Assembly: GCA_019828595.1 (NCBI GenBank)
Contig: JAHQRK010000011.1
Location: 620,001-684,000, forward strand
Direction: 5' to 3'
From: Aphanomyces cochlioides
Lineage: Eukaryota; Oomycota; Saprolegniomycetes; Saprolegniales; Verrucalvaceae
DNA: 64,000 bases
The position numbers and the translations under genes are program-made. Positions 40,093-62,118 of the stretch are shown here, one piece after another (position 1 is the stretch's first letter; each line of letters starts with the position of its first letter). Below the pieces are notes generated by a model. It saw nothing but the letters and a program-made list of their open reading frames with translations, had not been told where the DNA came from and ran no database searches.

Positions 40093-41007
40093 TTATGTTG
40101 TTGCTGTCGACTTGGGTGCCCCTGGACTTGTTCGCTTTTTGCTCGGGAGCACAGCTGACTTGCTTGAGCTGGCGTTTGAATGGTGAGTCGGCGTCGCTTC
40201 TGTCGTTCGAAAGAGCAACGATGTCTTTGACTCCTTGGCTTCCACGTTGGTTTGAACCGGTGAATCGGTTCGCGGCCGCTTCTGACTGCCGGAAGATGCC
40301 GACGAGTTGCGATATTGATCAACGATGCCCAAGATCGCGGACTTTGGATTGACGGGAGTGCTAATTGAGCGTTTGACGGGGGTAACCATCTTCGCCATGA
40401 CTTGAGGGGAAGAAGGCGTTGTCGTACAAAGATCCACGACGTGAATCTCGTTGATTTCTTCTTCCTTGTGTGAAAGAGCCCTGACGGGAGCTGCTGCATC
40501 CTTAGCAACACTGCCGTCACGACGCTGGTATTGATACACTGCAAGCATCTCGTCGGGCGGCAACACTCGGCCAAGGAAAGCAGTCGCATCGCTGGAGCAT
40601 GCCAGAGCATGGATATCTGAAATCATTGCGAAGTCTGAGTCATTGACAAGGAATACTGTCCGTTGTGTCTGTGGATTGAAGACGTAATGGTGGTAGAAGA
40701 GAGCTTCGGCACGACAAAATTGGTCGAAGTAATCGGCAGGGACGGAAACTTTATCGAGGCGTAATTTGGCCAAGATGCGCTTGACACGCAGATGTCCTGG
40801 CGCGCCGCGGAAGGCAAAAATGTGTTTCTGAGCTGTCTACAAGCATTTGATACCGTGAAGAGCCACAGAGGAGCTTTACCACAGGGCCAATATTTGGAAG
40901 CGAGTCGAGAAAGTCACAGCCTGACAAGACGCACATTTGGACAAACATGCGTATGGAATTGACAGTCGAGTCGAGGAAATGTGGCAATTTCTTCAAGAAA
41001 GCACTCT
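40093..41007 (-). CDS. EXO1: exonuclease 1 (EXO1), C-terminal exons
   Basis: Two exons (41007-40880, 40836-40093; 43-bp intron). They encode the end of the XPG-I region and the helix-2-turn-helix (FVQMCVLSGCDFLDSLPNIG), then AQKHIF...RVKRILAKLRL, the conserved VPADYFDQFCRAEALFYHHYVFNP segment and a polar, Ser/Lys-rich C-terminal tail. EXO1 is the 5'-to-3' nuclease of mismatch repair and end resection. The first ~250 residues are not here but at 62118-61221, with the 20-kb Polinton between. An acceptor (CTCTAG at 41008) precedes the first visible codon, so the separating DNA lies in an intron. Confidence 0.87.
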
Positions 41008-41032
41008 CTAGAGGCGAAAACAAACAAGATAT

Positions 41033-41250
41033 CAGCATCACTAGTAATAGCTACTAAAGGTATTTCGTAACCCAACCCCACAAAAACTACAACGACAAGC
41101 AGCAACAATTATCCATCATGGTAATCAGATCATTTCACACCATCAAAAAGCATCTCCATAAGACATATGGACGCAATGCGGATCAGCAAGTACTTCTCAA
41201 GGGACAGTGCAACAAAAACCCAAAATACACACACCAAACGATCCAAAGTC
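41033..41250 (+). repeat. left terminal inverted repeat of the Polinton
   Basis: Blocks matching the inverted right end in the same order: AAAGGTATTTCGTAACCC, CTACAACGACAAGCA, a CCATC-containing block, AGATCATTTCACACCA, AAGCATCT, TACTTCTCAAGGGACA and AAAATACACA. Identity is imperfect with small indels. Confidence 0.78.
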
Positions 41251-41354
41251 AAAATACTCACCCCTCAGAGTATTTTGCATATCTCAATTTAGTTATTAAT
41301 TTAGTCTTGAATTATAAATCTTATAGTATAACAAGATTGGAAAATCAATAGCAA

Positions 41355-41519
41355 ATGGCTCCACCAAAAAAATCACCAGAAGACAAAAAGCCAAGAGTTG
41401 AGGTAAATCATGACTACTATTACAATAATCAAAGGCATATCTTGAATAAAATCAATGCCCGGAATCGTTACAAAAAAGAAGTCAACCTATTCATGCATAT
41501 TTGTGTTTCAGATATTTAA
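41355..41519 (+). CDS. small basic Polinton protein, 54 residues
   Basis: MAPPKKSPEDKKPRVEVNHD... then YYYNNQRHILNKINARNRYK. Basic and Asn/Tyr-rich, first frame inside the left terminus. Its style (NNR.I...I..RNRYK) recalls small DNA-binding proteins of large DNA viruses, but no family is certain. A MITE inserted one base after the stop codon. Confidence 0.4.
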   Translation: MAPPKKSPEDKKPRVEVNHDYYYNNQRHILNKINARNRYKKEVNLFMHICVSDI

Positions 41520-41521
41520 TA

Positions 41522-42173
41522 CTACCTCTGTTTTCGAATGATTGCAAGTGAACATTCAGTCTTATAGATTATTCTAGTATAAAGAATCCGTATTTAAAAA
41601 TCCATGCAAAATCGATGGCAACACTACCAAGGAGGTTACAGACTTTACTTCTTCTCCTCGTGGAAAGTTTAATCGCTCTAGATCGACTGTTTTATCTTGA
41701 GACTTCTTCCTTTGTGAGGTTAGCATCGGTTATCGCCTTGGACTTTCATAACTGTGTCCATGACTCGCTGAAGAGTAACGGGGGTTTCGGGGTTTGGGGT
41801 TTAGTCATTTGGGGTTTGGGGGTTGACTTATCATGAATTGAATGCGTCAATCATCAGTATTGCGAGTTGAAACAACCTGCAAGCTCTTCTACATCATCGT
41901 GTGAGTATTTAACGTCTATTCTAACAAGAAACAGCTTTCGTTTGTTGTCCTAGGAAGGCATCGATTGAATCATCTCCTCGGTGAAGTTTATCTTGATTTT
42001 TGTATGTGGCATCGAAACTTCGCCATTGTCGGGGAAACGGAAAATATAATTCCGCAAAAAAATGGCATGGACTTAATGCACTAATTAGGACTCTGCCACC
42101 AATTTTCAAACCAATCACCAAAATCTAAGTTGACTAATTAGGTCCACTTGCAATCATTCGAAAACAGAGGTAG
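41522..42173. mobile_element. stowaway/mariner-type MITE with 29-bp TIRs
   Basis: 652 bp flanked by TA (41520-41521, 42174-42175). TIRs 41522-41550 and 42145-42173 are exact inverses, beginning CTACCTCTGTTTTCGAATGA. Inside is a G-rich tract (41780-41822). The minus/plus frames inside it have no transposase motifs. Confidence 0.9.
41780..41822 (+). other. G-quadruplex-forming tract
   Basis: Five runs of four to five G separated by TTTC, TTT, an 11-base loop and TTT (GGGGGTTTCGGGGTTTGGGG, then GGGGTTTGGGGG). It fits the canonical G4 pattern and looks telomere-like (TTTGGGG, TTTAG), within the MITE. Confidence 0.7.
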
Positions 42174-42647
42174 TAATTAACTACCTCAAGGTTAAAATAA
42201 TGTCAGATTTCTATAAGATATCATTTTTTTAAACCCACTAATATACATCTTCAAGAAAAACAATTTGATCTTGAAGTAATATATATATGAGACCCCGGCA
42301 GACAAAATGATGCTTATGACGTTTTGTTGAAGTTCTAGATAACCACACCGTACGATAGAGTTATGTTTAAGCTATATTTCTACTGTCTTTGGACCTTGAA
42401 ATTCCAAGTGCTTGAAGAGATATGACTGTCAGCGCGGCGGCCATGTCGCAATTTGAAATTTTTTGAAATTTATTTTACTCTCATTGGATAATACTTAAGG
42501 AGAGCAATCGATAAATGGTTTCGGATTGGCTGAAAACGGCCTGGAAGTTGCTCAAATAGCCCAATTAGAAAAATTAACCGGATATTTCCTGTATGCTGAT
42601 ATTTTTTTAATTTCGTTGCCACATTCATTTAGCCGTCATATTTCTTT

Positions 42648-42678
42648 TTATTACGTGTAATAATATTACACGTAATAA
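42648..42678. other. 14-bp stem hairpin at the inner element boundary
   Basis: TTATTACGTGTAAT, a 3-base loop, and its exact inverse complement, immediately before or overlapping the inner left end. May mark the target of the inner insertion. Confidence 0.5.
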
Positions 42679-43180
42679 ACCCCAGCAGACCAAATGATGC
42701 TTAAGTGGTTTTGTTGAAGTTGGAGTTAGCTATACAGGGCGATAGAGCGTTATCTTAGCTACATTTTGACGGTTTAATATCCCCAGAACTCGTCATGGTT
42801 ATTGAGATATGGTTGTCGGCGCGACGGCCTTACCGCGGCTTTCAATTTTTTCAATTTTTTTAATTTCACCATTGGATAATACTCGACACGAGCTACCGAT
42901 TTCTGGCGTCCAATTGGCTTAAAACGTACTGGAAGATGCTCAAACAGAAATAAAAAAAATTAACCGGATTTTTCCGGTAAATTTTTTGATGATTTTTTTT
43001 TAATTTCTTAGCCATCATTTTGAATGACGTGTGAGCAAATAAACATCATTTTGTTTGTTGGCTGAGTAACATTTATTGAATCAAGTATACATCGTGTTCA
43101 AGTGCTCAGTTAATCATCAAGCCGCTTTCGCTTTTGTTGTTGTGCTCTGGCTCGCTTGACTCGTTTAGCAGCTTCGGTCA

Positions 43181-43780
43181 CTACCTCATTTGGCTTGTCA
43201 TAGTAGCCGCAGTTGCGAAATTGCAGTGGCACGTATGGACCTTCTGGACATTGATCACATAGGCATTTTTGTTTTTCTGGTTGCCGTGTTCCTTTGCTGC
43301 CACAAGACCCTTCGCAATGCGCTGGCGACAGCGGTCAATTGTTGGGCTTGACACTCCAAAACACTCAGCAAGCGTCGCTCGGCACACATCTCCAACAAGG
43401 GGGATTCGATAAGTAAAGCGAACTCTTGTTTTCTTGCCTGGGGTGGCTTCGTTGGGTTCTGTCTTTGATTTCCACAGCAGTGAGAGGCATGTCGCCATAC
43501 ATGTTTGCTTTTCGCGCTTAGACATTAATGCCGTTGAAGCGAGAAAGTTAGAGATCTCCTTCTCTTTGCCAACTTTGCAATTTTTGTCGCAACACTCCGT
43601 CGCGTAAGGAGCACAAGAGTTCGAGGGGTTCTCTGCAATGGCATGGTCTGAACCATCACTGTCGTCGATCATGCTATCGTTGGCTTCAGAGTCATTCCAG
43701 TATTCGCTCTCGTCGGAGCCTTCAGCGCACCACGCAGACTCGGACCCAGCGCCATCGGAACTTTCAGCATGGTCACTCAT
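43181..43780 (-). CDS. transposon-encoded protein, probably transposase N-terminal part
   Basis: 199 residues. An acidic N-terminus (many Ser/Asp/Glu), then cysteines in CCDKNC, a helical region starting SKREKQTCMATCLSLLWK, and RVRFTYRIPLVGDVCRATLA followed by a helix-turn-helix-like ECFGVSSPTIDRCRQRI. This Cys-rich plus VCR-x-F/A-F/L arrangement is seen upstream of nuclease domains in several transposon-derived proteins. No DDE residues are present, so it may be truncated or a non-catalytic partner. Confidence 0.5.
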   Translation of the reverse strand: MSDHAESSDGAGSESAWCAEGSDESEYWNDSEANDSMIDDSDGSDHAIAENPSNSCAPYATECCDKNCKVGKEKEISNFLASTALMSKREKQTCMATCLSLLWKSKTEPNEATPGKKTRVRFTYRIPLVGDVCRATLAECFGVSSPTIDRCRQRIAKGLVAAKEHGNQKNKNAYVINVQKVHTCHCNFATAATMTSQMR

Positions 43781-44125
43781 TTTATTTTATTGTCCGTAAT
43801 ATAATGAATGCTTTATTTTATTACAATTTCTTCCCATGACCATATCTCAAATGAAGTGGAGGTGGCTGAAAGAGTGGTACTTCAGATTCAAAGCTGATTA
43901 TCTCAAAAGTCGAAAAATGGCTTAAGCATCACTTTGTCTGCCGGGGTCTCATATAATAACTTTTGTATTTTATTACGAAATTTTCGAGAGGTCATTTCTT
44001 GGGTGATGCCATGAATCGACAGATAGTGGTACGGTTCACAAGAAACCCATTTTCTCGAAAGTCAAAATTCGAGTTTTAATCATTTTGTTTGCCGGGGTCT
44101 CATATACATATAGATCTGAAAAATA

Positions 44126-46735
44126 ATGTCTACCAAAACCAATAATGCTATCGAAGCAACTAGAGCCAAATCAGTCATCTACCAACAAGCTAAAGCGCTA
44201 GGTCTTCCAGTATCGTGGAATATGAAAGCATCGCAAATTAAAGAAATTCTTAACCGCCCAAAATGTCAAGATGCTGCTCAAGTCAAAATTGCCTCGATTT
44301 ATAAAATGTCTAAAGCTAAATCGCAACTAAATGACTTGAAAGCTCTAAAGAAAATTAACAAATATCAAACAATAACCATCTTGCTTGATCAATTCAAACG
44401 TATTCGTCACAACATACACGCTCCAGCAGACAAGAACCTTTTGGTTCATTTTCTTGATGATGATGGCTCCACTCTTAGAACATATCATTTAAATTTCCAT
44501 CAAGTAAGCATTGACGAGCTTTATGTCACAGCTCAAAATGAATATACATCGGGTGCAGACGTTGATCTTCACATTTTACCTACGACAATGGTAACTTTAG
44601 AGTGGATTGAAGATCCCAAGCAATCAAGATCTTCGCGAAAAAACTTTTTTCGTTAGATGACGAAAGCTGACTACATGCTTGATCAATTTCAAGTGTATCC
44701 TCAATCACCAAATGGACTTCCTAAAACATCTGAGATTCCATGCTTTTTGTATGCTCTTGACCAAGCCGGGGTCTCTAAAGTTGTTGTAAACAAGATTAAG
44801 CAATCATGTTCCATTCAGGTATTACAACTAATTTGTTCAAAAAGATTGCGGAGAAGTTCAAATTGCGTTTAACTGTCAAGACATATAAGAATAATGACGG
44901 AGTTAAAAGTTACAATATCAATAACTACGGTCCATATAGCAAGAACGTAATTAATTTAGGTGTGACTCCAAAACATGTTTTTGCTATTAAGCAAACTAAC
45001 ATTACCTTGACTTCTCTTAACAATCCAGAACTTGTAAAACAAGAAGGATCAACTGAGTTAGTTCTTCATAATGGAAGAGTATCTTACAATTCCAAGCGAA
45101 TCAAGTTTCTCGATAGTTTTGAAGTAATATCTCATCTATATCACAATAGAGATAAGTTACTTATTCCTATTACACAAAGCAATGTTCCTAAACTACTCAA
45201 CCATGAGTATCAAAAAGTTGATTCACTTTGCGAAGAAGACTTTGGTCATGATACTTTCAGAGAAATTGGCCGTATCGACGGTAAAATGAAATTTGGTCAA
45301 TCTCCGTTCAATCAAGTTATGAACAAATATAAAAAGCAATATGAAGAAATCATCAACTTCAACGTCATATATATTTCGACTTTGAAACCCTTGTAAAAAA
45401 AGAAGGCGAACACGTTGCCTACTGTATCTCTTATAAAATCCTAAAATACAAATTCAGAAAGTTGCATTCAACTGGAGACACACAATATTTCTATGGATTT
45501 GATTGTGCAGAACGTTTCCTCGAAGCAATTCCAGAGAAGAGTCATAATTTGCTTTGGGCACATAATACTGGCTTTGATTTACGTTTTCTAATGAAACATG
45601 TAACTAGCTTTTCTCAAAAGTACAACATTATTGAATGTGGAACTCGTCTAAAACAAGCTCATTGTTTTTATAAGAGTTCTGAGATTGTTATCAAATGCAC
45701 AATGAGTTTTATCAATGACAAACTAGCTAAATTACCGTCAATGTTTAAAGACGCGAGCGAAGGCCTTCACCTTGAAAAAGAATCATTTCCTCATGACTTG
45801 ATCAATGAAAATAATTATAAATCTATGTGGAAACTTAGTGATATTGACTCTTTTGAAGACAAAGATGCCATGTTTGCTAATGCTACAAAGATTCCTGCTA
45901 TCAAAGATGACTTTATTGATATTCAGAAGTACGCTATTCATTACTGCAATCGTGACGTTGATGTATTACATTAATGTTTTGAAGCTTTCCGAATGATGTT
46001 TATCAATCGCTTTAATATTGATGTATGCCATCTATTGCTTATGCTATCCAACATAATCAAGGTTGCTTTGATGGATGTTTTGAACAAAATGGTACCGTAC
46101 TTGGTTTCATCCGCCAAGCTATTGTTGGAGGACGTGTTATGACTAAAAATAACAAAAAACATCACGTGAAACATCAATTGGGAGATTTTGATGCAGTATC
46201 GCTATATGCATCTGGCCAGTCGATATTACCTGGCTATGTAAAACGTAAAGCAAAATTCTTTAAAGGAACTCTTCCAGAGAACGCTGATTATTACATTGCA
46301 CGTGTTCGATTTGATTCAATTGGCAAACATCGCAACTTTCCTCTTTTGAGCATTCAACAAGATGGAACGCGTAATTTTACAAATAATATTGTTGGTGAAA
46401 CGATGGTCATAGGAAAGCAAGCACTGGAAGATATTGTAGAATTTCAAGATGTTAAATACACAATAATTGTAGGATGTTATTGGGACGAAGGTTTTAGCTC
46501 TCGAATCGTAGATATAGTTAAAGAATTGTTTGAAGAGCGCCTCAAATTGAAGAAGGAAGGCAATCCTCTGCAAGCAGGCATCAAGTTACTACTCAATAGC
46601 GCTTATGGAAAATTGATTCAAAAGCCAATCGTAAAAGAAAAGTTGCTCGTGAAAGGAGCTGACAAAATCAAAGAGCATACACAAAAGAAGATTCACAAGA
46701 TGATCTCGAGAACTCCAATCACTGATGATTTATAG
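44126..46735 (+). pseudogene. type-B (protein-primed-like) DNA polymerase of the Polinton, broken and truncated
   Basis: The frame starts MSTKTNNAIEATRAK with a SAP-like segment (residues 20-45). TAG at 44654-44656, a frameshift near 44805, another near 45366 (in an AT repeat), TAA at 45972-45974 and a shift near 46020 interrupt it. Motifs in order: Exo I FDFET, Exo II AHNTGFD, Exo III YCNRDVDVL, Pol A DFDAVSLYASG and Pol B LLNSAYGK. Pol C (the DTDS motif) and the thumb are missing; the sequence runs directly into integrase at 46740. The polymerase would replicate the element from protein-primed ends; this copy cannot. Confidence 0.9.
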
Positions 46736-46739
46736 CTAT

Positions 46740-47514
46740 ATATAAAACGCATTCACTAACATCAGACAATGGATCAGAGTTCATGAATAAACAGGTTCAA
46801 GAATTGATAACAAAAGAGCGTATAAGTCACTACGCAGGTGAATCTGGTGATCATACTATCTTAGGAAAGATAGATCGTTTTATTAGAACGTTGAAAGGAA
46901 GATTAACTAAAATGCATGACAATGGTATATTCAATGTTCTAACTCAAAGGCATCTCAACGATGCAATTGTCAACTATAATGACACAGAACACTCATCTCT
47001 TCATAAGACACCAAACGAAATGAATGGAAAAGTTGTGTTTTCTGAAAATGAACATAACCAAAATGTAGCTAAGCAAGTTTTGAATAACATACCCATTGGT
47101 TCAACAGTGCGTTACAAATTGAAACCAAAGACTCCATTTGAAAAAGAAGGTGCAAAATATTCCAAATCAGTATACGAATTTGTAGGGTTAGATGGTCTAA
47201 AGATGCATTTACGTTCAAAGAACAATCATGTTGTTTATAAACCAGTTAATGATGTTAAAATAGTACAAGCACAAACTACAGATGTCAATGGGAAAGCAAA
47301 TGATAGAAGCAATCGTAGATTGCCAGTTGCCGAAGGCAACATATATGAAGCAGAAAAGATTTTGGATCACAAAAAGCTCAAGAATGGAAAATATAAGTAT
47401 CTTGTAAGGTGGGCCGATGGTGATGAAACATGGGAAACACAAAACAATTTAAGAATATTTAATAAGAGTCAAATGAGTCAATTAGAGAATAATTATTTTA
47501 AGGATTTACAATAA
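46740..47514 (+). pseudogene. Polinton integrase (rve) with C-terminal chromodomain, N-terminally deleted
   Basis: Open from about 46756: SDNGSEF carries the second catalytic Asp, then LGKIDRFIRTLKGRL, where the position of the third acidic residue reads Asp, and the conserved NYNDTEHSSLHKTPNEM. The zinc-binding HHCC domain and first catalytic Asp are absent because of the deletion that joins it to the polymerase. A chromodomain follows (~residues 185-240: YEAEKILDHK, KYLVRWADGDETWE), which in such integrases targets chromatin. ATG at 46783 is internal to the family sequence. Confidence 0.88.
47306..47344 (+). repeat. 39-bp inverted repeat, arm 1
   Basis: GAAGCAATCGTAGATTGCCA followed by a GTTGCC-GAA-GGCAAC hairpin and ATAT. 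Its inverse complement, with one mismatch, is at 53441-53479. This arm lies within the integrase frame just before the chromodomain. Confidence 0.85.
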
Positions 47515-47554
47515 ACTATGAAATATATATATACACTAATTAATTCGTAGTAAA

Positions 47555-48884
47555 ATGTATCCAAGCTATAAGGATCTCGCTGATAAGAAACAAAAGTTAC
47601 AAAAATACTATGATCAAATCCAGTTTGATCAAAAGATTGATGCCATTAAACAAAAGGCATATGAAAATGCTATTTGGAGTAGCGATATTGCATCAAATAT
47701 GATTTTACCGAAACCTCAGATGACTTCAAATGAAGGCAGAAATATTGAAACTCAAACTGAGTCACTGGAAGGCAGAACTATTGAAACTCAAACAAAAAGA
47801 ATTCCTCGCCCAAAGGTGGAAGCCAGATCTGCTCAAACTGAACCAATGGGGATTGATGCAGGAACTCAATATGAAAGCAAACCAAGGTACGAACCTGGTA
47901 TTAAAACAAAGGATCAAATTAAACTTGAAAATATGGCGCCTGTTAAAACAAGAAATCGTTTCGGAATTTTGTCTGATGAAGATGAAGAAGAATCAAAACC
48001 ACTCTATCTCCAAGATAACAAGAAATCTCCCAGACAAGAAATTATTGATCTTTATAGGGAAAATTGGAACTTCTTCAAAACAAGAAAAAAAATTCCGATA
48101 TTACTATCTGGCGCTGAAGATCCGAGTGTATATTTGGGACGATCAGCTAGACTATTTACTATACGGCGTGGTCATGAAAATAAGAATAAGCGTGTAACTG
48201 ATTACGATTGGATTGCTACTAAAGAAAAAATTGACAAAATTATTGATGAAAATAGACGATTGAATGCTCTCCGACGAGATATGACTCAAATGTCAGTTAA
48301 AGACGAATCAGACCATTCTGGCCGTGAGGGGTCAGATGTTAAAATGGAAGGACAAGGATTTAAGTTAATTACACGCAAAAAGCTAATTGGAAGAGGCTTA
48401 GTTGGAGCTGGAATTTCGCATATACATAATTTTGAAAGAGAATATTTATATCGGCCTCTTGGTTCTAAATATGTTAATCTTAAAGCTCTTGGTCAAGGAT
48501 ATCTAAGTTTAAGACACCCATCTGGAAATCCTTGTTTCAAAAGATTGAAAATGTCTCAAAAATTAATTCAAATCATCAAAATCCTGATTTTGATGGAGTT
48601 ATTGACCATAGACTTTACAATCAGCTAGATAATGCTGATAAAATAATCTTCTACGATAGCTGAAAGTTTGTAAATTACTTAATTCATTCAAGGAAACAAT
48701 TACAGATCCTCGTGCGAATAGTGATAAATATGCTGCTGAGTTTAATAAGCTAATTGGAGAACTTAAGGTAGGAAATGATAGTCTAACAGTAAAATCAGAA
48801 TTAAAGAAGATGTCAATTCACTTATTTCAAAATGGAGTTTTAAATGAAAAACAATTTAATGATATTTTGAAGCTCACTACATAG
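47555..48884 (+). pseudogene. Polinton virion-type protein of unknown function, frameshifted
   Basis: First frame 47555-48580: an N-terminal coiled coil, a Thr/Glu-rich repeat region (IETQTESLEGRTIETQTK, two near copies), a D/E run, a globular segment (LSGAEDPSVYLGRSARLF) and a Gly-rich KKLIGRGLVGAGISHIHNFER block. Two shifts near 48540 and 48680 lead to a C-terminal helix (FNKLIGELKVGNDS...NGVLNEKQFNDILKL) whose GE...GN.S...ELK pattern I have seen in virion proteins of Polinton-like viruses. Role unknown, possibly minor virion or membrane-associated. Confidence 0.5.
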
Positions 48885-48913
48885 GAACAAAAGTTTATCT
48901 GTAATCAAATAAA

Positions 48914-49121
48914 ATGAAAATATTCAATGTTAGAAGTCCGTTTATGAAAAAATACAATAAAAAAGCTAAGGAAAATGAGGCGAAATTGATTGAAACAGTG
49001 GAAATCAAACTTACTCATTGATAAAACAGAGCCAACAACCAGTTTTCAGCGATATGGGCCAAGTATTGATGAATATAAGCGAAAAAAGAGATTAGAGAAA
49101 GTAAAGACATATGCTCTTTAA
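48914..49121 (+). pseudogene. small Polinton protein, frameshifted
   Basis: About 68 codons. MKIFNVRSPFMKKYNKKAKE in the first frame, then after a shift near 49015 a Lys-rich end (IDEYKRKKRLEKVKTYAL). Family unknown. Placed between two other virion-type genes on the same strand. Confidence 0.4.
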
Positions 49122-49174
49122 AACAATTAATGATATTTTTCTTCAATTTATGTAGTACATAGAATATAGAAAAT

Positions 49175-49644
49175 ATGAAACATACAGGAGGTTATAAAGT
49201 AGTTCACGTATCATCGTCGATTTCGAAGAAAAAGCTTTCTAAAGCTCTTAAAGGGGGCACAATCACTTTGAGTAAAAATGACTTAGAAGGTACTCATCCA
49301 ATTCTTTTACATCCTGAGAACGCAAAAAGGTTATTGCTGCTCAGAAGAGTGGTAAAGGTGCTCGTTTAGATTTTACCGAAGGGGAAATTCATCACGATAT
49401 AGGCCATCATCAAGGGACATCGCTGTGGGATTCAATCAAGAGCGGGTTAAGCACGTTATGGAGCTACGCAAAGCCTGTAGTTAGTACTTTAGCGGATGGA
49501 ATAGCTTTTAGTAACCCTGAGTTAGCTGGCTTGAGGCAAGGTGTGAAAGACCTAACGGGAGTTGGTTTCAAAGGCTCACGAGCAGCTAAAGACCGCATGG
49601 CTGCTGTTCGTGCGAAGAAACGTGGAGGTAGCTTTAAGTTGTAG
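49175..49644 (+). pseudogene. Polinton virion-type basic protein with a one-base frameshift
   Basis: Residues 1-50 (GGYKVVHVSSSISKKKLSKA...GTHPILLHPENAKK) then, after a lost A in an A-run at 49323-49327, GKGARLDFTEGEIHHD, a hydrophobic amphipathic segment (LWDSIKSGLSTLWSYAKPVV) and a basic end KKRGGSFKL. Basic N-part, amphipathic helix and GG-containing end recall adenovirus-type core or lytic proteins processed by the viral protease, but this is only an analogy. About 157 residues if read across the shift. Confidence 0.5.
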
Positions 49645-49928
49645 GGCATAAAAATACCCTTTTACGTTTGATCATAAGCTTTAAGATTCATATATATAGC
49701 CTGTAGCATATACACTATGAATGATTACAAAACTGGCATTATCTATAAAATTGTACATACTCAATATGAAATATGCTATGTAGGTATGACGATGGATAGA
49801 TTGGCAAAGAGGTGGCAGAAACATAAAAGTGATTGTAATAAGCCTGAGAGCAAAAGTAAAGCTACCATATATCCTTATATGCATCAATACGGAGTTGAAC
49901 AATTTAAAATTTTCGCAATTAAAGAATA

Positions 49929-51768: not shown

Positions 51769-52332
51769 TATCAAGTTATTGATAAAAATCATTTGAAGGT
51801 TTATGAAACACTTTGGATGAATAAATTGAAATGTGTTAATAAAGTATCATCATTTAATCCAATTCCAAAAATGGAATATTTCAAAGCGTATAATGAAATC
51901 AACAAAGACAAAATAGTTGAAGTAGGTAAGAAATACTACGGAAAAAACAAAGATAAAATTGCCAAAGCAGGTAAGGAATACTATGAAAAGAATAAACGAA
52001 AAATTAATGAAGCAGGTAAGGAATACTATGAAAAAATAAAGGAAAAATTGCTGAAAGAAAACAAATATATTATGAAAGCAACAAAGAAAAGTTTGCTGAA
52101 AAGAATAAAAATATCGTGAAAATAACAAACACAAAATGGCTGAAGTAAAGAAAATCTATAATGAAAAGAATAAAGAAATGATTAAAGCCAGAAGATCAGA
52201 AAAGTTCATCTGCGAATGCGGTGGTCACTGTAGAATTGGTGATAAAGCTCGACATCTTAGAACTAAAAAACATCAAGCTTTTCTAAATAGCCAGTAGTAA
52301 AAATAATATACATCTATATAGCATACCTAACA

Positions 52333-52530
52333 ATGTATGTTGATCTATCTCTCATAAAAAAAACTGATCAAATGAAAGAAGCTCAAATAAAACGACATCT
52401 AAACCCGTATAAAAGAAACAGGTATATTTGTGAATGTGGTGAATCTGTGAATGTGAGGTATCAATATAGTCATCAAAGATCATTTGGACATAAAAAAACA
52501 ATGATTAAAATTGAAAGAGATGAAATTTAG
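52333..52530 (+). CDS. small zinc-finger-like Polinton protein
   Basis: 65 residues, Lys/Arg-rich, ending with CECGESVNVRYQYSHQRSFG and HKK: a CxC-x(~14)-H-x(~6)-H arrangement like the C-terminal finger of the GIY-YIG protein just upstream, of which it may be a detached duplicate. Intact frame. Confidence 0.5.
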   Translation: MYVDLSLIKKTDQMKEAQIKRHLNPYKRNRYICECGESVNVRYQYSHQRSFGHKKTMIKIERDEI

Positions 52531-52532
52531 AT

Positions 52533-53393
52533 TTAATCTATTTTTTTCTCTCTAATAATCAACTGAATCAAGATTTGAGTATCTTCAAATTTGACAATAT
52601 TATAATTCTGATCGCAAATTACGATTTCTATGTAAGGTCTTGAGCCATCTGAGATCGAAACCCAAAAGTACTCAGAATATCGAACATCAATTAAATCTCC
52701 GATACTTGTATTTTGAGATGTGAAAGATGTTAAAACATCGGGAATTGATGTGTATGGATTATTGACCAAATTGCAACGAACTAAATAGCTTGAAACAGGA
52801 TTTACTTGTGGTGTAAAACTGCTTAAGAATGTTTGAGCAGTAGTTTGCTGACTTGATGGGAATGTTCCAGTTTGATAACCAACGATTAAATTGAATCCAC
52901 TTGGAATCACAATCTGAGGTGTATATCCTCCTGTTGGAAGACTACTTGAATATAATCCTGAAGAAGGTAGCGACCAACCTGTCTGTAGAGTTACTGGAAC
53001 TGGTATTAAGTCAATTTGACAACCGTAATATGTTGCATTCTCAGAAATATTTACATATACTACGTTATTACCATTGGAGTCAATCAGATATGCTCCAGCA
53101 GAAATTAATTCAGAAGCTACATAATTTTGAATATCAGCATAACTGTAATAACCATTAGGTAAAGTGATAGAAATAGTTGATGTGGAGGAGCCATATGGAA
53201 CAATAATTTGGAAGATATTATTTCCATACAAGGTTGAATTAATATTGAATTGAGAATTATACAATTGAATAGAAGAAACAGCAATTTGCATATTACTAAA
53301 ATTAACTGAGCTATTTCCAAATTAATATCTTAGCGTATTGTTAAAACCATTTTTCACAATATTAGTTGCGTTGAAAACAATTACTGAGCTCAT
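52533..53393 (-). pseudogene. Polinton minor capsid (penton-type) protein with one stop codon
   Basis: From ATG 53393: MSSVIVFNATNIVKNGFNNT, TAA at about 53322-53324, then NMQIAVSSIQLYNSQFNI and NNIFQIIVPYGSSTSTISIT, LPNGYYSYADIQNYVASELI. The S..LYNS-FNI start with an LPnGyYs-dI turn is the signature of the single-jelly-roll penton protein of Polintons and virophages. The C-terminal 100 residues are beta-rich and end in REKKID. Length about 286 codons, normal. Minus strand, followed upstream by the ATPase on the same strand. Confidence 0.75.
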
Positions 53394-53440
53394 TTTCTTA
53401 TGTTATGTTATACCACTTATTTATTATTTGATTGAAATTA

Positions 53441-53479
53441 ATATGTTGCCTTCGGCAACTGGCAATCTCCGATTGCTTC
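53441..53479 (-). repeat. 39-bp inverted repeat, arm 2
   Basis: Inverse complement of 47306-47344 with one mismatch, lying 3 bp beyond the ATPase stop codon, before the minor-capsid start. Its core GTTGCC-GAA-GGCAAC can form a hairpin. Confidence 0.85.
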
Positions 53480-53481
53480 TT

Positions 53482-54160
53482 TCAAAGTGTATTCAAATCA
53501 ATTTTCTTGCCAAAGTTATATCTGAGTTCTTGATTTACAGAATCAACAAAGAGACATTGTCCCTTGCTCTCAGTCCTTTATTGTATGCTTTGATCATCTT
53601 ATCTTCATCCACCCCAGGAATATTGAAGTCCTTACATACCATTTGAAGATCCCTTTTGCTATTCGCTTTCAAAATAAATACATATTCACTATTTAACCGA
53701 ATCATCTTGTCTGTAGCAAAATAACTATGAGCAAGGAAGCAAGTTGATAGCAAATGATGTCTTCCGCGAGTGAAAAAGTGGCTAAATAAGTCTTTTTGTA
53801 ATTTTTTGTCATTTGAGTAGTCATCTATGATAACTAATTGTAATGAGCCATTATTTGGAATATCATTAACGGAAGGCGGATTATCTGGATCATAAATAGT
53901 GATAAAGTCTTTTAATTTATCTCGCAAGTAATTAAATAGTTCCTGATCAGGATTTCTTGCTATAATGTGTAAATGACTATAAATATGAGGTGAGTGTTTA
54001 AGAATATGAAAAATTAGATTCGCTTTTCCTGAGTAGCTTGGCCAAAGAATAATCGCTTTGAATAGATTTTGAATTTTTAGACCTTTATTGATACGTGAGA
54101 CTTACTTTTATAAGCCTTCGGTAATTTTCCACCCCAGTTCTCTATTTCGTTTGAGCTCAT
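53482..54160 (-). pseudogene. Polinton packaging ATPase (FtsK/HerA, A32-like), frameshifted
   Basis: From ATG 54160 (MSSNEIENWGGKLPKAY...), with a shift near 54095. Walker A-like WPSYSGKANLIFHILK (the usual first Gly and final Thr are replaced by Trp and Ala), then Walker B LQLVIIDDYSND, the sensor-like STCFLAHSYF and RLNSEYVFILKAN. A second shift near 53545 leads to the C-terminal FRYNF-type strand (LRYNFGKKI) before the stop at 53482. It would pump DNA into capsids. The altered P-loop argues that it was already inactive. Confidence 0.8.
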
Positions 54161-54240
54161 TTATTAGATATTCGTGTCGTTGAACTATATATTTTAGAAT
54201 TTATACTTATTGTTTTCAACTCTATTGAAACCCCAAGAAT

Positions 54241-56344
54241 ATGAGTGGGATTATAGCTAATAAACCTATTCAAAACAGTTCAACATACAATCCAGCTAAT
54301 TACACCAGCAATGAGGTTATCTTAAATCAAGTGATCCAAGAGTTTCATATATCAGTAATGTAACACCTGGTCAAGCAAGTGCTAAAACAGCATTAATCTT
54401 AGTTTCGGGGCTTTCAATCGTTGGAGTCAATTCAATGGCAGTTGGAAAATCAATTGCAAATCACAAAATAGATTGCTCGGGGACAATAAATGCGGCAACT
54501 TATCGTATCAATGATACTCTCGCAGATTTAACTCTTTTAACAAATATTTCACCTGGTGTTGGAACAGCTAATTGATCACTTGTATTAGATTCCAATGGTT
54601 CTATAAATTCTATTAATGCTTTGAGCGTTAATTATATATCGATTAATGGAACGCTTCTGTCTTCGACTGAAGCTGGATATATTAGCAGTATCACGACAGG
54701 AACCGCTTCGGCAAGCAAAGCTCTTGTACTTGATTCATCCAGAAACATTTCATATATTAATTCATTAACTTCATCTAAGCTTGCGTGTAATGGATTTTTG
54801 AATTTGAACAATCAATACATTGGATCAAATCATACATTATCAACAAATTGTGTTTCGCTGTATGACAATGCTATTTATTTCCGAAATAAAGACGGAGGAG
54901 ATGCCAATCACGGCTTAATGTATGCTGGATACGGAAATAATTCATGGAATAGCGGTAAGGGTTTTGGAAACCCTTCGAATGGAGTAGATAGACCAGTATT
55001 ATTCGGAAATCAAGGAGTAATGATCGGTAATTTGAACGGAGCAAATACAGAAATGGTATGCGCAACATTTATGGTAACTACTTCTAATTTGTTTGGAAAA
55101 GCCAATGTAAATAGTCCATCTATTACTTCAAGTCAAGTAAATATTCAATCGCTTGGTCAGCATATCGGATTTATAAATGATTCCAATAATTATGCAACAT
55201 TTGCTTGTTTAGGTGATGCCAGAGTTTCGCTTACTTGTAATAGTTTAACATCAACCCCAACTGCTTTCCAATATTGGTTTGATAGTCCGTCTAATTCGAG
55301 CGTACCAAGATTTTCACTTAGTGGAGGAAGCCCGCCGGCATCTACTGGATCTAATTTTAGATTAAATTTAGGAAATACATCAGGAGATATTCAAATTGTA
55401 TTGTATAATCAGAACAATTTATCGCCTTCATACGGATTTGGTGTAAATAATAATTCAATCCAATATGTTTGTGCTGGAGCATCCGGTCATAGATTCTATA
55501 ATTCTTCAGGTTTATCAGGAGTTGGATCAAACATAAATATTGGTACGTTAAATGCTGTTATAGATGTGAATGGTAATGTTGTAGCTTCTTCGGGATTTAG
55601 AGCATTAGGAACTAACGCTGCTTATACTGGCTCTGGCGCAGAAGTGGAATATAATGGAGGAGTAGCTGCCTTTTTTGGATATAATCGTTCGACTTTGATG
55701 AATGTAACTACTAGATTGGGGCAAAGTCTTTACGTAACCGGTTCAACTGGCTATGTCGGTGTTGAGACTTCAACTGCTGCGTGTCCATTTCATGTTGTAG
55801 GAACAAATACGCAAACAACAGCTTCTAATTTTGGATTCTTGGCAGCAGGGGGAGCAGGCTCGGCCACGGCATTTACAAATAGAGCATTCTCAATTCGATC
55901 TGATGGAGGAATTTATGTTACAAGCGGTGAAATCGACGTGACTTCTGATGAATATTTCAAAGAAAACATAAATATAATTACAGATGAATTAGCTGATAAA
56001 TTCATAAATAAAATAAACCCAATCGAATTTAACTACAAAGAATCAACCTATAAACATTACGGCTACTCAGCTCAAGAATTGGTGAAAAATAAATTTGATA
56101 TTGTTGTGGGATCTTTTCAAACTGATGAACCATTAGATGAACGGAAATTAATCAATGATGAAGGAGAAGAAATCATTATACCAAAAAATACAAGATTAGT
56201 AGTTAATTTACTGTCAACTATTCCATTGCTTCATAAAGCACTTCTAATAGTAGAAGTGATGCTTTAGAACAACAAATTGCTGAATTAAAAAAAATTGAAG
56301 CAATTCTAAGCTCGCTTAGTATATCTTTCTTTTTGTGTGTTTAG
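54241..56344 (+). pseudogene. fibre-like protein with C-terminal S74 intramolecular chaperone
   Basis: Starts MSGIIANKPIQNSSTYNPAN; a shift near 54335 and TGA at 54573-54575 precede the long frame 54621-56267. The body has Ser/Asn-rich beta repeats (SKALVLDSSRNISYINSLTS, partly repeated upstream). From about residue 430 of the long frame comes the peptidase S74 domain: SDEYFKENINIITDELADKF, INPIEFNYKE and GYSAQEL. A last shift near 56235 gives a short coiled coil (EQQIAELKKIEAIL). S74 domains trimerise phage and algal-virus fibres and cut themselves off. Likely a host-attachment protein of the virus. Confidence 0.8.
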
Positions 56345-58105
56345 GTCCAATGATGAATTTCACCAGTTAAGCGATCAATAGAAAGCTCTCGTTCATATAC
56401 AACAAATACTAAAGCATTCATACCTTGACAGCAAGCATTGACACCGCTTACGATAGCAGATTGAGGAACGTCTTCATTTGTAATACGAGAGCAATCGGCA
56501 ACCATAATACGTTGAACCGTTTGCCACTTTTGAAAATCAATGAAACCATTTGAAATTTCTGGGTAAGGCCACCATTGATCGCTCCAAGTTTCTTAAATTC
56601 GTCATTCCAAGCTTCAAAATCGTAATCCAATGTTTTGCTAAATACGTTATCATTTCCAACTTGAACTTGAAAGCTACGAATTGAGCTACCTGCTTGATAG
56701 GTCCATGGCGCGCTATCAAATGGGCTTTGGAATTGTTCAACGCCATTAGCCGACGCATTCGCGAAGTGTCCACTTGATGTTTCACTGAATGGAAGTAAGC
56801 AAACGTATTTGATATTTTTCCAAGATCCAGATAATTGAAGATTGAATGTATTATTTTGTTGGGCAGAAGGCAAAGCGCCAGCGCCAGCTTTTCCTCGGAA
56901 ATATTGAGCATAACAATCAAGATATTTCACACTCTTTACAGCATGGCTGACAATCGGTAATGGATTAGCAATATCATAATATGGAATATTTAATCGGGCC
57001 GTCGAGAATGGAAGGAACTGACCAGCTTGAGCTAACGTGGTGATATTTTTCTGAAGTGGACCAAATGCTAAACGAACCGTAGTTGCTCCAGTATTACAAT
57101 TTTCAAGAGCATTTCTTGCAGCAGCAGAGGCCAACATAATTGGTACGGTATTACCACTTGTCATAGTTGTAGAGGTTAAAGTTAGACTACCAGTACCAGC
57201 AGCACCAGCAACAACTGCAATATCACAGTAACCAGCATTGACCTTAAGACGTAGCTTTAGTTGAGGATTTCCAATTAGGTCGAATTCTTTGAAAATTGGA
57301 TGAAGATCAACGAGACGAATTTTCAACATATGATGTCATACACCAAGAACAGAGCCAGCCACTGGGGTAGTATTTAGGACAACAGCTCCTTTACCATATT
57401 GAGCCGCAATGGTTGATGCTACCGTAGATCGTTGGGTAACCCAATTATACGCATTGACTCCTCCAGTAACATTTCCTAATGCGTCAATGTTGCTGTAAGT
57501 TGCGGATTGCTATAAATACGAGATATGAATCCATTATTTTCTTTCAACGATGCCTCAGTTGGAACTGTTCCCAAGTTTGCAGTGCAATTTGTGAAATTGT
57601 TCGTGAATCCATCGCCTGATAAAGAAGCCCCAGAAAACGACATAGAAGTCCAATCATCTGCGCTCATAAAAGCATCAGCACCGTGTTTATTGAGGTCAGA
57701 AGTACTCCATTCAGTCATTGCACAAAGATTATTCCAATAAAGTTTGAAATCCGATTCAGTAATGATAGTTTGACCATTGAGCTGTACGGTCATAGAGTCA
57801 AGGATATTCCATACTCCGGCTTTTAAAGCTGTGCAATAACGGTTAATAGCACCAAATGTACCAGCACCAGTATTTTTCATTGAGACGATATACGGTAGCG
57901 TAATATAAGCATCTTTTAAAGAAGCAAATCCTTTAGCCCCTTGAAGACTCGTTGCGGCATCAATGGAAATAATACCAGACTGATAACTGCCTTGGTTTAC
58001 ATCTGGAACTTGTACCATTCGTTTTCCTTTAGAAACGGAAGTAGATGGTTCGCTCTTTAAAGAGCTTTCATTTAAAAATTGATCGGCTAATTGATACTCA
58101 CTCAT
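56341..58105 (-). pseudogene. Polinton major capsid protein (double jelly roll), frameshifted
   Basis: First part 58105-~57490 (MSEYQLADQFLNESSLKSEP; VTVQLNG-type strand in SMTVQLNGQTII; YWNNLCAMTEWS), a shift near 57490, TGA at 57336-57338, then 57329-~56555 with VDLHPIFKEFDLIGNPQLKL, the hallmark strand of Polinton major capsid proteins, and ARLNIPYYD. A last shift near 56555 leads to QRIMVADCSR and the end EIHHWT. About 588 codons in all, the usual size. Its stop overlaps the end of the converging fibre gene by 4 bp. Confidence 0.9.
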
Positions 58106-58159
58106 TATATATTATTAATTATATACAGCCACAGATAAGATTATTTTTAAATTATTTAA
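58106..58159. promoter_or_regulatory. divergent capsid/protease intergenic region
   Basis: 54 bp, almost only A and T (TTATATATTATTAATTATAT), separating the divergent capsid and protease start codons. Probably TATA boxes for both, as usual in such compact viral genomes. Confidence 0.45.
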
Positions 58160-58537
58160 TGGAGCTGATAAAAGGAATTACGAGTGCTCATCAGCTAATT
58201 GAATTAGCTGATTTATTGGATATTAAATTAGATGGAATATTTGATTTGGATGAAATAGAAAAGCCATTACCAAAAAATACAAATTACTTAATTTTATTAA
58301 GATAGATGCTAGTAATGTCGGCCATTGGGTGTGTGTTTATCACGACGAATTTTTCGATAGTATGGGTGAACCAGCTCCATTAATATTGGGAATAAAAAAT
58401 ATAACCAAAAACAATTTCAATCAACGTATAGAGAATATTGCGGAATTTATTGTATATTATTTTTATACGCAAAACAGAATAATAGAATGGATATATTTGA
58501 CCATTTTCACGATTTAAATAATCGCGATTTCGAATAA
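58160..58537 (+). pseudogene. adenain-like (C5/ULP1) capsid-maturation cysteine protease, frameshifted
   Basis: MELIKGITSAHQLIELADLL, shift near 58295, then DASNVGHWVCVYHDEFFDSM with the catalytic His (GHW) and Asp (FDS) and GEPAP, a shift near 58410, then REYCGIYCILFLYAK with the catalytic Cys (YCGIYC) preceded by a Gln. Order and spacing are those of Polinton/adenovirus proteases that cleave GG-type sites in virion proteins. Ends 2 bp from the converging ExoX-like gene. Confidence 0.83.
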
Positions 58538-58538
58538 T

Positions 58539-58826
58539 TTATTTTAACGCTTCAAGCTCAGATAATAATTTTGGGCATTTGTCTTTCACATATTCATTAC
58601 TTCTTAGCCATTTAATATAATTTGGATCGATTTCTTTGATTTTATTCAAATTTAACCCATTATGCTTACCCAATCGCATTTTATACGATAAATCTGCATC
58701 CTTTAATTTTTCAGTTTTATTTGATAATAACATTTCATGATTTAATAACCATTTACAGTAATTTTGGTCAATTTCAAGAACTTCTTGAATAGACTTAGTT
58801 TTGTATTTTCTAAAATTTAATTCCAT
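58539..58826 (-). CDS. protein with two ExoX-C-like repeats
   Basis: 95 residues, intact. Two copies of the pattern F/L-x-KYKxKSIxEVLExDxNYCKWLL (residues 5-32) and LGKHNGLNLNKIKEIDPNYI (52-75). This repeat accompanies exonuclease domains in bacterial and viral proteins. Stand-alone forms are of unknown function, perhaps DNA-binding. It is one of the few viral genes here without a frameshift. Confidence 0.65.
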   Translation of the reverse strand: MELNFRKYKTKSIQEVLEIDQNYCKWLLNHEMLLSNKTEKLKDADLSYKMRLGKHNGLNLNKIKEIDPNYIKWLRSNEYVKDKCPKLLSELEALK

Positions 58827-59092
58827 TTTTTAATATATTCTATAGGCGATAGGTATTTTTAAAATTAATATAATATATAAACTGTATAATTTGATATTCT
58901 CTTGAGTTTGGGTTTTGTTTGCCAAAATGCTGCATTTTCCTATAATAATTTAAGTGAATTGAGTTTATCAAGTTCTCTATAAATTAATTCATGACGATTG
59001 GTGTAAAATTAGATTACCGCCATTTTGATATGTTCTATTTTAAATTCAAGACTGATATCAATATTCTTGTTCATTTTCCCAAATGTTCGCTA

Positions 59093-59227
59093 CATCAAAG
59101 ACAGCCTCCATAAAAAACGACGTTAAGACTACTTGCGTCAAATGCGGTGATCCGACGCGGCAATCACAGCAGCATTCATTCTTTTTGAATAGATTGAACA
59201 TCCGTATACTAGTATTTATTATCCGGT
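59093..59227 (+). CDS. small frame with a CVKCG pair
   Basis: 44 codons, MFATSKTASIKNDVKTTCVK then CGDPTRQSQQHSFF; one CxxC pair. Probably a relic or chance frame. The stop overlaps a TTATCCGGT motif (59219-59227). Confidence 0.25.
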
Positions 59228-60227
59228 GAAAGTGTGCCAGATTGACGGGGGCGGCTTCACTTTCGCTTTAGCACTTCCGACGCAGTCCGTGGCGACGACA
59301 GCGTTTCCTCTGCGCAAGGTCTCAAACGTAGCAGTGCAACAGCCGAAGAAGGCAACCCCAAGAGAAGTCGAACCAACAACAGCGCGACACCAACTGATTC
59401 GAAGCAACCTCGAATTGAAGAAAAACCATATTGGAACACAATGATCGTTCCAGCACCCACTGCGGCCATTCCAGAACCAAATCAAGGTGAGTTGATGGCA
59501 ATCCATTCGATCAATCAGAAGATCAAATCTCTCGACTGGAAGCTCGTGGAGAAAGAGCTCGAAAAGGGAATGGTGTACTTGGGAGATGCTTCCCTCAGTG
59601 ATTGGGAAGCCTTTGTTACGAGCGAAGACCAGCAACTCAAGTCGAAAAACATGGAATGGATCGATAGGAAGATTTTCATTGTTGAATTGCCGTCTCAAGA
59701 ACATGCAACATATGTGGGGAGATTGGTGGTTGCTATCTATGATGCTACCCACACTCAATATGACTTTGTAAAGATTTCCTGAGATGCGTATCAAACCAAT
59801 ATCCGCCGCCTCGAGCCAGATTTGTGTCTTATACCCCGTCGAGTCCTTGCACAGCCTCCATACAACGTTCAGTTGCCTCCTGGTCTCGACGATTGGGGCA
59901 ACTTCCACTCTGTGAAATGGGACGTGGCGTGGTCCCAGAGTTGTTCTTGGTTGGAAGGCCAACCAGTGGGCAATGGTAGACACTATGGTTTACTTCATCT
60001 GTATTAAATTGGACCCTCACAATCCGTCCTACAAAGTGCATCACGTTGTTCATCATGGTGTCCAATTGCCGGAAATGATCCCTCTTCCGATTGCCCCGCC
60101 AAACACTGTCATACAATTGGATTCGCGTCTAGTCCTGCAGCTACCTGCAACCAGTCCTTTGCCACCCAACTTTCCACCTCAATTGGATATTGATCTTTAT
60201 GCTCCACTTACTGTTGCACTTGAATAA
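59228..60227 (+). pseudogene. Uma2-like PD-(D/E)XK nuclease relic inside the Polinton
   Basis: GC-richer than the viral genes. A frame from about 59270 gives a nuclear-signal-like NPKRSRTNN, then MIVPAPTAAIPEPNQGELMA and the core: VGRLVVAIYDATHTQYDF, TGA at 59780-59782, then, same frame, RRLEPDLCLIPRR (the PD of the nuclease) and FHSVKWDVAWSQS (the E-x-K-like strand, here altered), a shift near 59965, and YFICIKLDPHNP with a C-terminal Pro-rich region. Uma2-type domains are expanded in oomycetes and arbuscular fungi. The gene lies between the last viral gene and the right terminus, so it was carried or captured by the element. Broken. Confidence 0.6.
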
Positions 60228-60397
60228 CCACCCGCTGCCGCCGCAATGTGTATTTTGTGTTTTGTCCCTTGAGAAGTAATTTTTGCTTTCAGATGCTTCT
60301 GGTATGAAATAATCTTATCATCACATTAGCTAATGGATGGTGCTTATAGTTGCTTCTCATTGGTAGATTTCGAAAAAGGGTACGATATACCTTTAAC

Positions 60398-61177
60398 TAG
60401 GGTGGAGAAAATCGACCTTCTAGGTCAATACTACCGACAGAGTACTCCGTCGTAATAAGTGCTGTCATTGAATTTGAAGCATCGTATTGGTTATCATACA
60501 GTTATGAGCTACGAAGCTTCAAATCATCGATATCACTGTTTGCTGGATACTGTCAAATGTCAATCGATTTTGAATATCTTTTTCTCTTTAAATGTATCTT
60601 TTACTAATGTCATCTAAAGACTTGCTCCTGGAACCATCGGCTATACTGGGAATGTGCAGCTTTTGCGCAAGGAACCGTTGTTGTTGCGATTATCTGTCGA
60701 AGTTTTGGCACAAGTGAGGAAGTATTGTCAAAAAATTGGAGATTGGCAATCGATTTTAGAATCAACTAGCCAATCAAATTGCTTGTTTTCTAATTTTTAG
60801 CCAATTATATGCCTTTAATTTTGCCCTCAGGTGGCGAAAAATCAAACGCACTGAGGTGGTCTGGTTGTCCAATGCTCTTCTCGTCGTCGTTGTCAGGAGC
60901 ATTCAGCAGGCTATTGATGCTTAGCATCTCTGCCACATCGCTCGATTGCTCATCATGCCACTCAGAGTTGGTGTCAATATTCGACTGGTAAGAATTTGCT
61001 TCATCTGATTTGCCACTGTGAAAGGGACTTCTCCATTTTTGAACTCGTTGGTGTCCCTACGAACTGAAAACCTTACCACTCATGCTAACACGACATGTCG
61101 TGTTAGTGTTATCACTACTTTTACTCCGACACACTACCTCCGGAGGGAGTACGACCTCCAGAGTACTTCTCCACCTA
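60398..61177. mobile_element. hAT-type MITE with 8-bp target duplication
   Basis: Ends TAGGGTGGAGAA (60398) and inverse TAGGTGGAGAA (to 61177), with the 8-bp direct repeat CCTTTAAC on both sides (60390-60397, 61178-61185), as hAT elements make. 780 bp, non-autonomous. It includes a 22-bp perfect palindrome at 61085-61106. It lies inside the right terminal repeat of the Polinton. Confidence 0.88.
61085..61106. other. 22-bp perfect palindrome
   Basis: Centre ACATGT, arms CTAACACGACA and its inverse. Located in the hAT-type MITE. Possible cruciform or factor site. Confidence 0.6.
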
Positions 61178-61220
61178 CCTTTAACAGCTTTTACTGCAGA
61201 TAAAACGGTGTAAATGCTTA

Positions 61221-62118
61221 CTGCTTGTCGGGCCATACGCTCGGAGGATTTCTCTCGACACCATCTGCATAAATCAAGTCATTTCTCGCGAAGGGAATCA
61301 TGGACAAGACCTTGCAAGCATCAGTGGTATCCATGCGAAGCAAAATGGGCGATGAAATGTTGGCTGTCATGCTATATACAAAAATGTCCGAGCCTTCCGT
61401 GATGATGGCGGACGCAGCGTTGATTTTGCAGAGATAAACCATCTGCGCATCCGCTTCAAACGGCCTAGACGCTATTTTCAATAAAATCAACATCAAAGAA
61501 GAGCTTACGCTATGACAAACTCGACGCCTTCAGCGCGCAATGCTGCTTGAAGCGCAGCAATGATGTTGATGTAATATTGACCGACTAGACCCGTCATCAA
61601 TGCTTAAAGTCAATCTTGGGGAATCGAGTACTCGTTGGAAATACGTGTTGGTCTTAGCCATTTGCTCTTTTCGATCGTCGCCTTGGAGATGCCGGGTGTC
61701 TCGCAAAGTCTTCATGGCAAGATCGTGGTTGGCCTCTTTGTAGCTCTTTCGCTTCTCGTGTGTATTCGCCTGCAGTGAGATCTCTGTCATTTCGTGCTAT
61801 TTCAACAGCAAGCTTGCCTTGAGAGGGAGCTTCTTCCCATCAAACACGAGGATCGGACGAACACTGACGCTCTTGAGGAGATCAATTCGACGCATGACGA
61901 AATTGATGTAAGTCTGCGTCTCTTTTCCAAGTGCCAAATCGAACGCACATCCATAGCATCTATCGTCAAAGAATCAGCTATTCTTCAGGAATTCTTCTCA
62001 CGGACGCTTTATGGAGCCATGATAGTGCGTCTATAACGACGCTCTGGCCTTTGAATTCACTCACGTGGGCATCTTTGTACGCTTCCTTGAGCTGTGTCGG
62101 CAGACCTTCGATGCCCAT
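61221..62118 (-). CDS. EXO1: exonuclease 1 (EXO1), N-terminal exons
   Basis: Exons 62118-62006, 61959-61818, 61769-61632, 61584-61509 and 61464 to ~61258 or 61222. The start MGIEGLPTQLKEAYKDAHVS and VVIDALSWLHKACYGCAFDL form the XPG-N nuclease half. VRPILVFDGKKLPLK carries a catalytic Asp, and PFEADAQMVYL plus AIITEGSDIFVY hold the next acidic cluster (the second usually DSD, here GSD). The intron 61770-61817 uses GCAAGC...AG. Exon 4 (SVNIT... to GVEFVIA) appears one base short, giving a frameshift. The remaining exons are at 41007-40093, beyond the Polinton. Confidence 0.85.

Follow-up and report, generated by a model that had tools for sequence, protein, structure and literature searches.

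We have examined a window of 64,000 nt in the genome of the oomycete Aphanomyces cochlioides (bases 620001-684000 of contig C3, in an assembly of 76.2 Mb and 94 contigs) in which an EXO1-like nuclease gene is divided by a Polinton-type (polinton-like virus) element. The locus is most probably a dead provirus within a dead, spare nuclease gene, and it has the appearance of ordinary gene loss, not of a giant intron still in use or of a repair enzyme that is missing. That the gene is dead is argued from three lesions, seen in a single assembly and none of them present in the closest relative of the gene, the 511-amino-acid A. euteiches protein P0001, to which 465 of 499 aligned residues are identical.

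The EXO1-like gene consists of eight exons on the minus strand, from 62118 to 40093, as defined by translation, the spliced frame and alignment to P0001:
62006..62118, minus strand: exon 1 (MGIEGL...), from translation, spliced frame and P0001 match
61818..61959, minus strand: exon 2, with a GC-AG intron next, from spliced frame and P0001 match
61632..61769, minus strand: exon 3, from spliced frame and P0001 match
61509..61584, minus strand: exon 4, frameshifted relative to P0001, the incoming frame stopping near the exon 3' end
61311..61464, minus strand: exon 5, with IITEGSD instead of IITEDSD (human EXO1 D171 position)
61222..61264, minus strand: exon 6, the final one ahead of the element, from spliced frame and P0001 match
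41008..61221, minus strand: exon 6-7 interval, GTAAGC...CTAG, 20,214 nt
40880..41007, minus strand: exon 7 (SAFLKKLPHFLDS...SGCDFLDSLPNIG), from spliced frame and P0001 match
40093..40836, minus strand: exon 8, open to a TAA, the stop lying at the Gln of P0001 QGTLLAFFSKR

A sequence-only reading of this DNA had placed two EXO1 halves on the same strand and in the right order, about 20 kb apart, with splice sites and frame kept. This arrangement is borne out, as exons 1-6 (62118-61222) and 7-8 (41007-40093) match one protein, P0001, across an interval measured at 20,214 nt. Intron 6, of the GT-AG type, opens with the donor GTAAGC at 61221, closes with the acceptor CTAG at 41008 and joins in frame, and one reading frame extends from mid-exon 4 through exon 8. 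P0001 runs on over the exon 6/7 join with the same residues save for one substitution nearby; among the splice choices offered earlier, the 61222/41007 join is the one in agreement with P0001. The six remaining introns, including intron 3 (61631-61585), are 43-48 nt long, in keeping with the ∼45 bp previously described as usual here. Intron 2 (61817-61770) has a GC donor, and P0001 lacks exactly the adjacent VFDGKKLPLK, a gap which is probably a gene-model error in A. euteiches. No second copy of the gene was detected in the 76.2-Mb genome in searches with the last exon and with P0001; beyond its own locus, P0001 gave weak matches to distant family members on C56, C6 and C34.

In exon 4, the incoming frame reads SVNIT as in P0001 and then needs a shift, the unshifted frame running into a TAG before the donor; both frameshift and stop are located upstream of the element in the gene. 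In exon 5, Gly in IITEGSD occupies a position at which P0001 has Asp, as do 13 of the 13 further oomycete relatives that have a residue aligned to it. This Gly aligns to D171 of human EXO1, which we take to be a metal ligand, and leaves the metal-binding site of the window gene incomplete. In exon 8, TAA replaces the Gln of QGTLLAFFSKR, presumably a PIP-like box, with GTLLAFFSKR still readable past the stop, to about 40063. The Gly at the D171 position and the Gln-to-stop change are substitutions and would therefore remain even if the frameshift were an assembly error. Perfect splicing still would not be expected to yield a normal enzyme and, as assembled, the paralogue is disabled independently of the insertion. 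The earlier suggestion of a working gene with a virus-sized intron is thus not supported, in view of the exon 4 shift and stop, the lost Asp and the stop at the PIP-like box, which would together disable the product.

The identity of the split gene required revision. Its assignment to the EXO1 family stands, as XPG_N and XPG_I domains are matched, human EXO1 scores best among PDB sequences (E 3.7e-42), and a C-terminal PIP-like box is present in the A. euteiches relative; its designation as EXO1 proper does not, as it belongs to a separate, long-stemmed oomycete paralogue clade and has lost the active-site-region Asp. Genome-wide, XPG_I was matched at 6 places and XPG_N at 5. From their translations and sequence, the other loci are read as putative FEN1 (C16), XPG/RAD2 (C34), Asteroid/XRN-like (C11), EXO1-like (C6) and canonical EXO1 (C56) genes. 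The C56 gene keeps the SEDSD and SGCD motifs; its protein was pieced together by eye, and the parts used show no frame break. A tree of 25 rows, whose backbone linking the oomycete clades to plant, fungal and insect EXO1 is not resolved, places the C56 gene beside A. euteiches within one oomycete clade (100/99) on a short stem. The window gene does not group with this canonical clade in the same tree, falling instead in the long-stemmed clade (99/100) with counterparts from A. euteiches, Achlya, Saprolegnia, Pythium and Phytophthora. Among the matches listed, the C56 query is 44-48% identical to plant EXO1 rows and the window-gene query 30-31%. We call the C56 clade canonical on two grounds, the greater similarity of its members to plant EXO1 and its short stem. 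The window gene is thus a divergent oomycete EXO1 paralogue, not canonical EXO1. A further EXO1-like gene at C6:1724941-1728063 carries SEDAD and AGCDY motifs and has a long tree branch; its placement, like that of the long-branched FEN1, is unsure.

The genome-wide search for another EXO1 copy, proposed with the sequence-only reading as a check, therefore succeeded on contig C56, and the organism has an EXO1 of the canonical kind. Loss of EXO1 from the organism, which had been raised as a possibility, is rejected on account of this gene, with another EXO1-like gene present at C6. The associated proposal, that such a loss explains the indels nearby through a higher mutation rate, loses its premise.

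The element occupying intron 6 has matching inverted termini at 41043 and 61195 and the following genes:
41043..61195, no strand assigned: Polinton-type element, 20,153 bp, termini AGTAA...TTACT, recognised by matching inverted termini
45071..46741, plus strand: family B DNA polymerase (PF03175), in pieces in several frames with stops
46729..47514, plus strand: integrase fragment (rve below curated cut-off) with chromodomain
53485..54160, minus strand: A32-type packaging ATPase (Pox_A32), over three frames
54576..56267, plus strand: Peptidase_S74 (fibre-like) protein
56344..58018, minus strand: capsid-type protein, over three frames with one internal stop

PF03175 was matched above cut-off in two window pieces and in the C20 sister copy, and Pox_A32 above cut-off in both copies. 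The rve match remained below the curated cut-off of 32.6 in the window (E 0.0071, 17 bits) and in the C20 copy (E 4.4e-6, 27.3 bits), while the chromodomain passed its cut-off of 25.1 in the window (30.2 bits) and fell below it in the C20 copy (14.5); the rve-matching fragment is accordingly labelled a putative integrase. At E <= 0.001, 189 relatives were found for the 559-amino-acid capsid-type protein of the C20 copy. In the best 120 of these 189, four are named capsid, major capsid or virion structural protein and two bear unrelated names, and the named relatives among the matches listed are oomycete proteins. The same protein had no match in Pfam, and PDB sequences gave best E values of only 0.86 and 0.88. 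Searches with a capsid fragment among viral contigs and with the capsid-type protein in phage records returned nothing useful. Rhv_5 was matched, below threshold (14.8 bits vs 27), by one open reading frame in the C20 copy. The S74 protein (window 54576-56267 vs C20 copy L030:4310-6184) is only 38% identical in amino acids over 404 aligned positions, while the DNA on either side of its gene is 87-96% identical between the two copies, as if the fibre-like gene had been swapped between copies.

A Polinton-type element in an intron of an EXO1-family gene is therefore upheld by the inverted termini, polymerase, ATPase, integrase-like fragment and relatives of the capsid-type protein. The description of this element as a full Polinton is not: the polymerase, ATPase and capsid-type frames of the window copy are broken, ∼0.9 kb present between polymerase and integrase in the C20 copy is deleted just upstream of the window integrase fragment, and four apparent nested elements have been acquired:
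41524..42171, no strand assigned: apparent nested element bounded by inverted ends; missing from the C20 copy
42288..44102, no strand assigned: apparent nested element bounded by inverted ends; missing from the C20 copy
49928..51769, minus strand: apparent nested element bounded by inverted ends, with a DUF7769 protein; missing from the C20 copy
60398..61177, no strand assigned: apparent nested short element within the right terminal repeat, flanked by an 8-bp duplication CCTTTAAC

The last of these is not in the C78 end (the one shown in full). Identity to the C20 copy varies from 75.6 to 98.3% by stretch, with the minimum over 47.9-52.5 kb. The left 480 bases (41043-41521) differ from the copy at C3:893154 by 0 mismatches and 1 gap (99.6%), elsewhere the two being 2-24% different, a pattern which hints at gene conversion.

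The terminal inverted repeats are about 160-190 nt long and the two ends of the window copy are strongly diverged. Both terminal types recur in other copies, and the pairing of unlike left and right ends is not unique, as one C78 copy has the same two types. Matches to the left repeat occur at 15 other places, with 95-99% identity at nine and lower identity or incomplete matches at six; the right repeat belongs to another type, matched over its full length at just two further places, each of them on C78. Divergence of the two ends therefore need not post-date insertion, and use of terminal-repeat divergence as a clock was rejected as the ends are different types. Target duplications were investigated at 14 of 24 apparent end pairs. 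A perfect 6-bp duplication was observed at 13 of the 14 sister end pairs, the exception being C13:223543, at which the flanks are reverse complements of each other. The window element has no target-site duplication, its left flank being ATCACT and its right flank GCAGAT. Recombination between two nearby insertions, or loss at one end, would do as an explanation for the missing duplication. A possible hidden duplication, the near-match TATCTG/TATCTT close to the ends, which would leave a 43-nt intron, was considered and set aside; read by eye, it is separated from the ends by extra bases. By termini and gene homology, the window copy is considered a decayed relic of the Polinton-type family, not a clean insertion.

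The rate of amino-acid change was compared with that of canonical EXO1. Relatives polarise the 34 differences between the window gene and P0001 as 21 on the window lineage, 6 on that of A. euteiches and 7 undecided. Five of the 21 (residues 133-137) are frameshift artefacts, leaving 16 vs 6 (binomial p 0.052); with the artefacts included, 21 vs 6 gives p 0.006. Well-conserved sites hold 9 differences which, once 2 artefacts are dropped, comprise 6 on the window lineage vs 1. In the canonical EXO1 control, the corresponding values are 9 vs 3, or 6 vs 3 after removal of three splice-model artefacts. The rate asymmetry was rejected as proof of relaxed constraint, the control having a similar ratio.

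Under the explanation we favour, a dead provirus in a dead, spare gene, an element whose family has dozens of termini in this genome would have entered the short intron 6 of the paralogue, insertion presumably being driven by its integrase with chromodomain, as is the practice of the family. The resulting 20-kb intron, among introns of 43-48 nt, would probably be spliced inefficiently, and selection on the gene may have relaxed after insertion. Insertion may have been either the cause or a sequel of the loss of the gene. Several points weigh against this explanation. The lesions rest on a single assembly; the lack of a target-site duplication leaves a simple single insertion in doubt; amino-acid change taken as a whole has not been clearly faster on the window lineage than in the canonical EXO1 control; and both splice sites are intact, as is the frame across the element, with exons 5-8 otherwise open, as if the gene had been retained for a time. 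Within the favoured explanation, death of the gene first, with the element landing later in a neutral locus, is possible but rather doubtful. The lesions lie on both sides of the element and are independent of it, and large parts of the element share 93-99% identity with sister copies, such that insertion need not be old. However, other stretches are only 75-91% identical to the same sister copies, the four apparent nested insertions together with several breaks in the frames speak for some age after insertion, and one genome cannot reveal the sequence of events.

A gene that still works, with the element transcribed and spliced as a 20-kb intron and the exon 4 frameshift an assembly error, is improbable. 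Although the GTAAGC donor and CTAG acceptor are intact, the frame is kept and only one frameshift occurs in about 1.5 kb of coding sequence, the change of an invariant Asp to Gly and the stop at the PIP-like Gln are independent substitutions, and the other introns of the gene are just 43-48 nt. Removal even now of a provirus-sized spliceosomal intron, ∼450 times the usual length, with lesions that are recent or partly assembly errors, has a similarly slim chance. Least probable of all, and hardly to be credited, is an assembly artefact in which unrelated halves were joined via a repeated element. The element does belong to a repeat family, its right terminal repeat is unlike the left and no target-site duplication is present, but each flank is one half of a single gene, with order and phase correct, an outcome that a chance misjoin would not give; no second copy of either half was found in the genome, and the same left and right terminal types are paired in the C78 copy.

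Oomycetes are already known to carry Polinton-type elements, and host genes to harbour viral ones (PMC7805220, PMC10120064, PMC8547959); no report of the present locus was found in the portions of the searched literature that were available. Infection RNA-seq data described in PMC11653986 contain under 1% pathogen reads. For the oomycete Gossevirus-group polinton-like viruses or Polintons, target duplications of 5-7 bp are described (Bellas and Sommaruga 2021, PMC7805220; Bellas et al. 2023, PMC10120064). As described there, these elements share with the present family an oomycete host, PolB, a packaging ATPase, a capsid-type protein, terminal inverted repeats, many copies per genome, an rve-type integrase in some copies (putative in the present family) and short duplications (6 bp in the sister copies here). 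The window copy differs from them in being broken, in having unlike terminal repeats and in having no duplication. The endogenous mavirus-like elements (EMALEs) of Cafeteria were recorded as 13 insertions in exons, 2 in introns, 4 in 3' untranslated regions and 3 in intergenic positions, and a section title terms them predicted functional and mobile (Hackl et al. 2021, PMC8547959). EMALEs are similar in being viral elements with rve integrase (putative in the window copy) and chromodomain that reside in host genes, and dissimilar in having another host and in that the window copy is decayed. The present locus adds an oomycete case of polinton-like viruses landing in host genes, and offers a clear test of splicing across a 20-kb provirus in a gene whose other introns are very short. 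As canonical EXO1 is present, the locus is no reason to suppose a higher mutation rate, and it is otherwise ordinary gene decay.

The sister copies indicate how the family is distributed in this genome. The terminal pattern, with <=2 mismatches allowed, occurs at 61 places and its reversed control at 0; the right end of the window element is not among the 61 because a nested element interrupts the pattern. PolB matches number 33, some being two pieces of one copy, and 16 lie within an open frame of 1,059 residues with nearly equal scores, which suggests that the subfamily with this polymerase represents a recent burst. Many paired termini are ∼17.2 kb apart, in line with such a burst. When the element is removed from the 13 sister sites, host frames of 364, 596 and 364 codons are open at three, whereas frames of at least 364 codons surround 1.9% of 2,000 random positions in window 1-40 kb, a control drawn from one 40-kb region. 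Frames of at least 231 codons occur at 4 of the 13 sites vs 25% of random positions, and only the longest frames stand out. Insertion into genes is therefore not rare for this family, judging from the long open host frames at sister sites, and in this it resembles the EMALEs of Cafeteria. Flank hexamers are also shared between sites, ATGCGA by C78:672485 and C78:640930 and TTGATG by C56:505993 and C78:656782, cross-paired as if the copies had recombined (inversion, translocation) or been misassembled. At C17:50572 and C17:70045, the ends bracket 19.5 kb and the outermost 12 bases on each side are identical and inverted.

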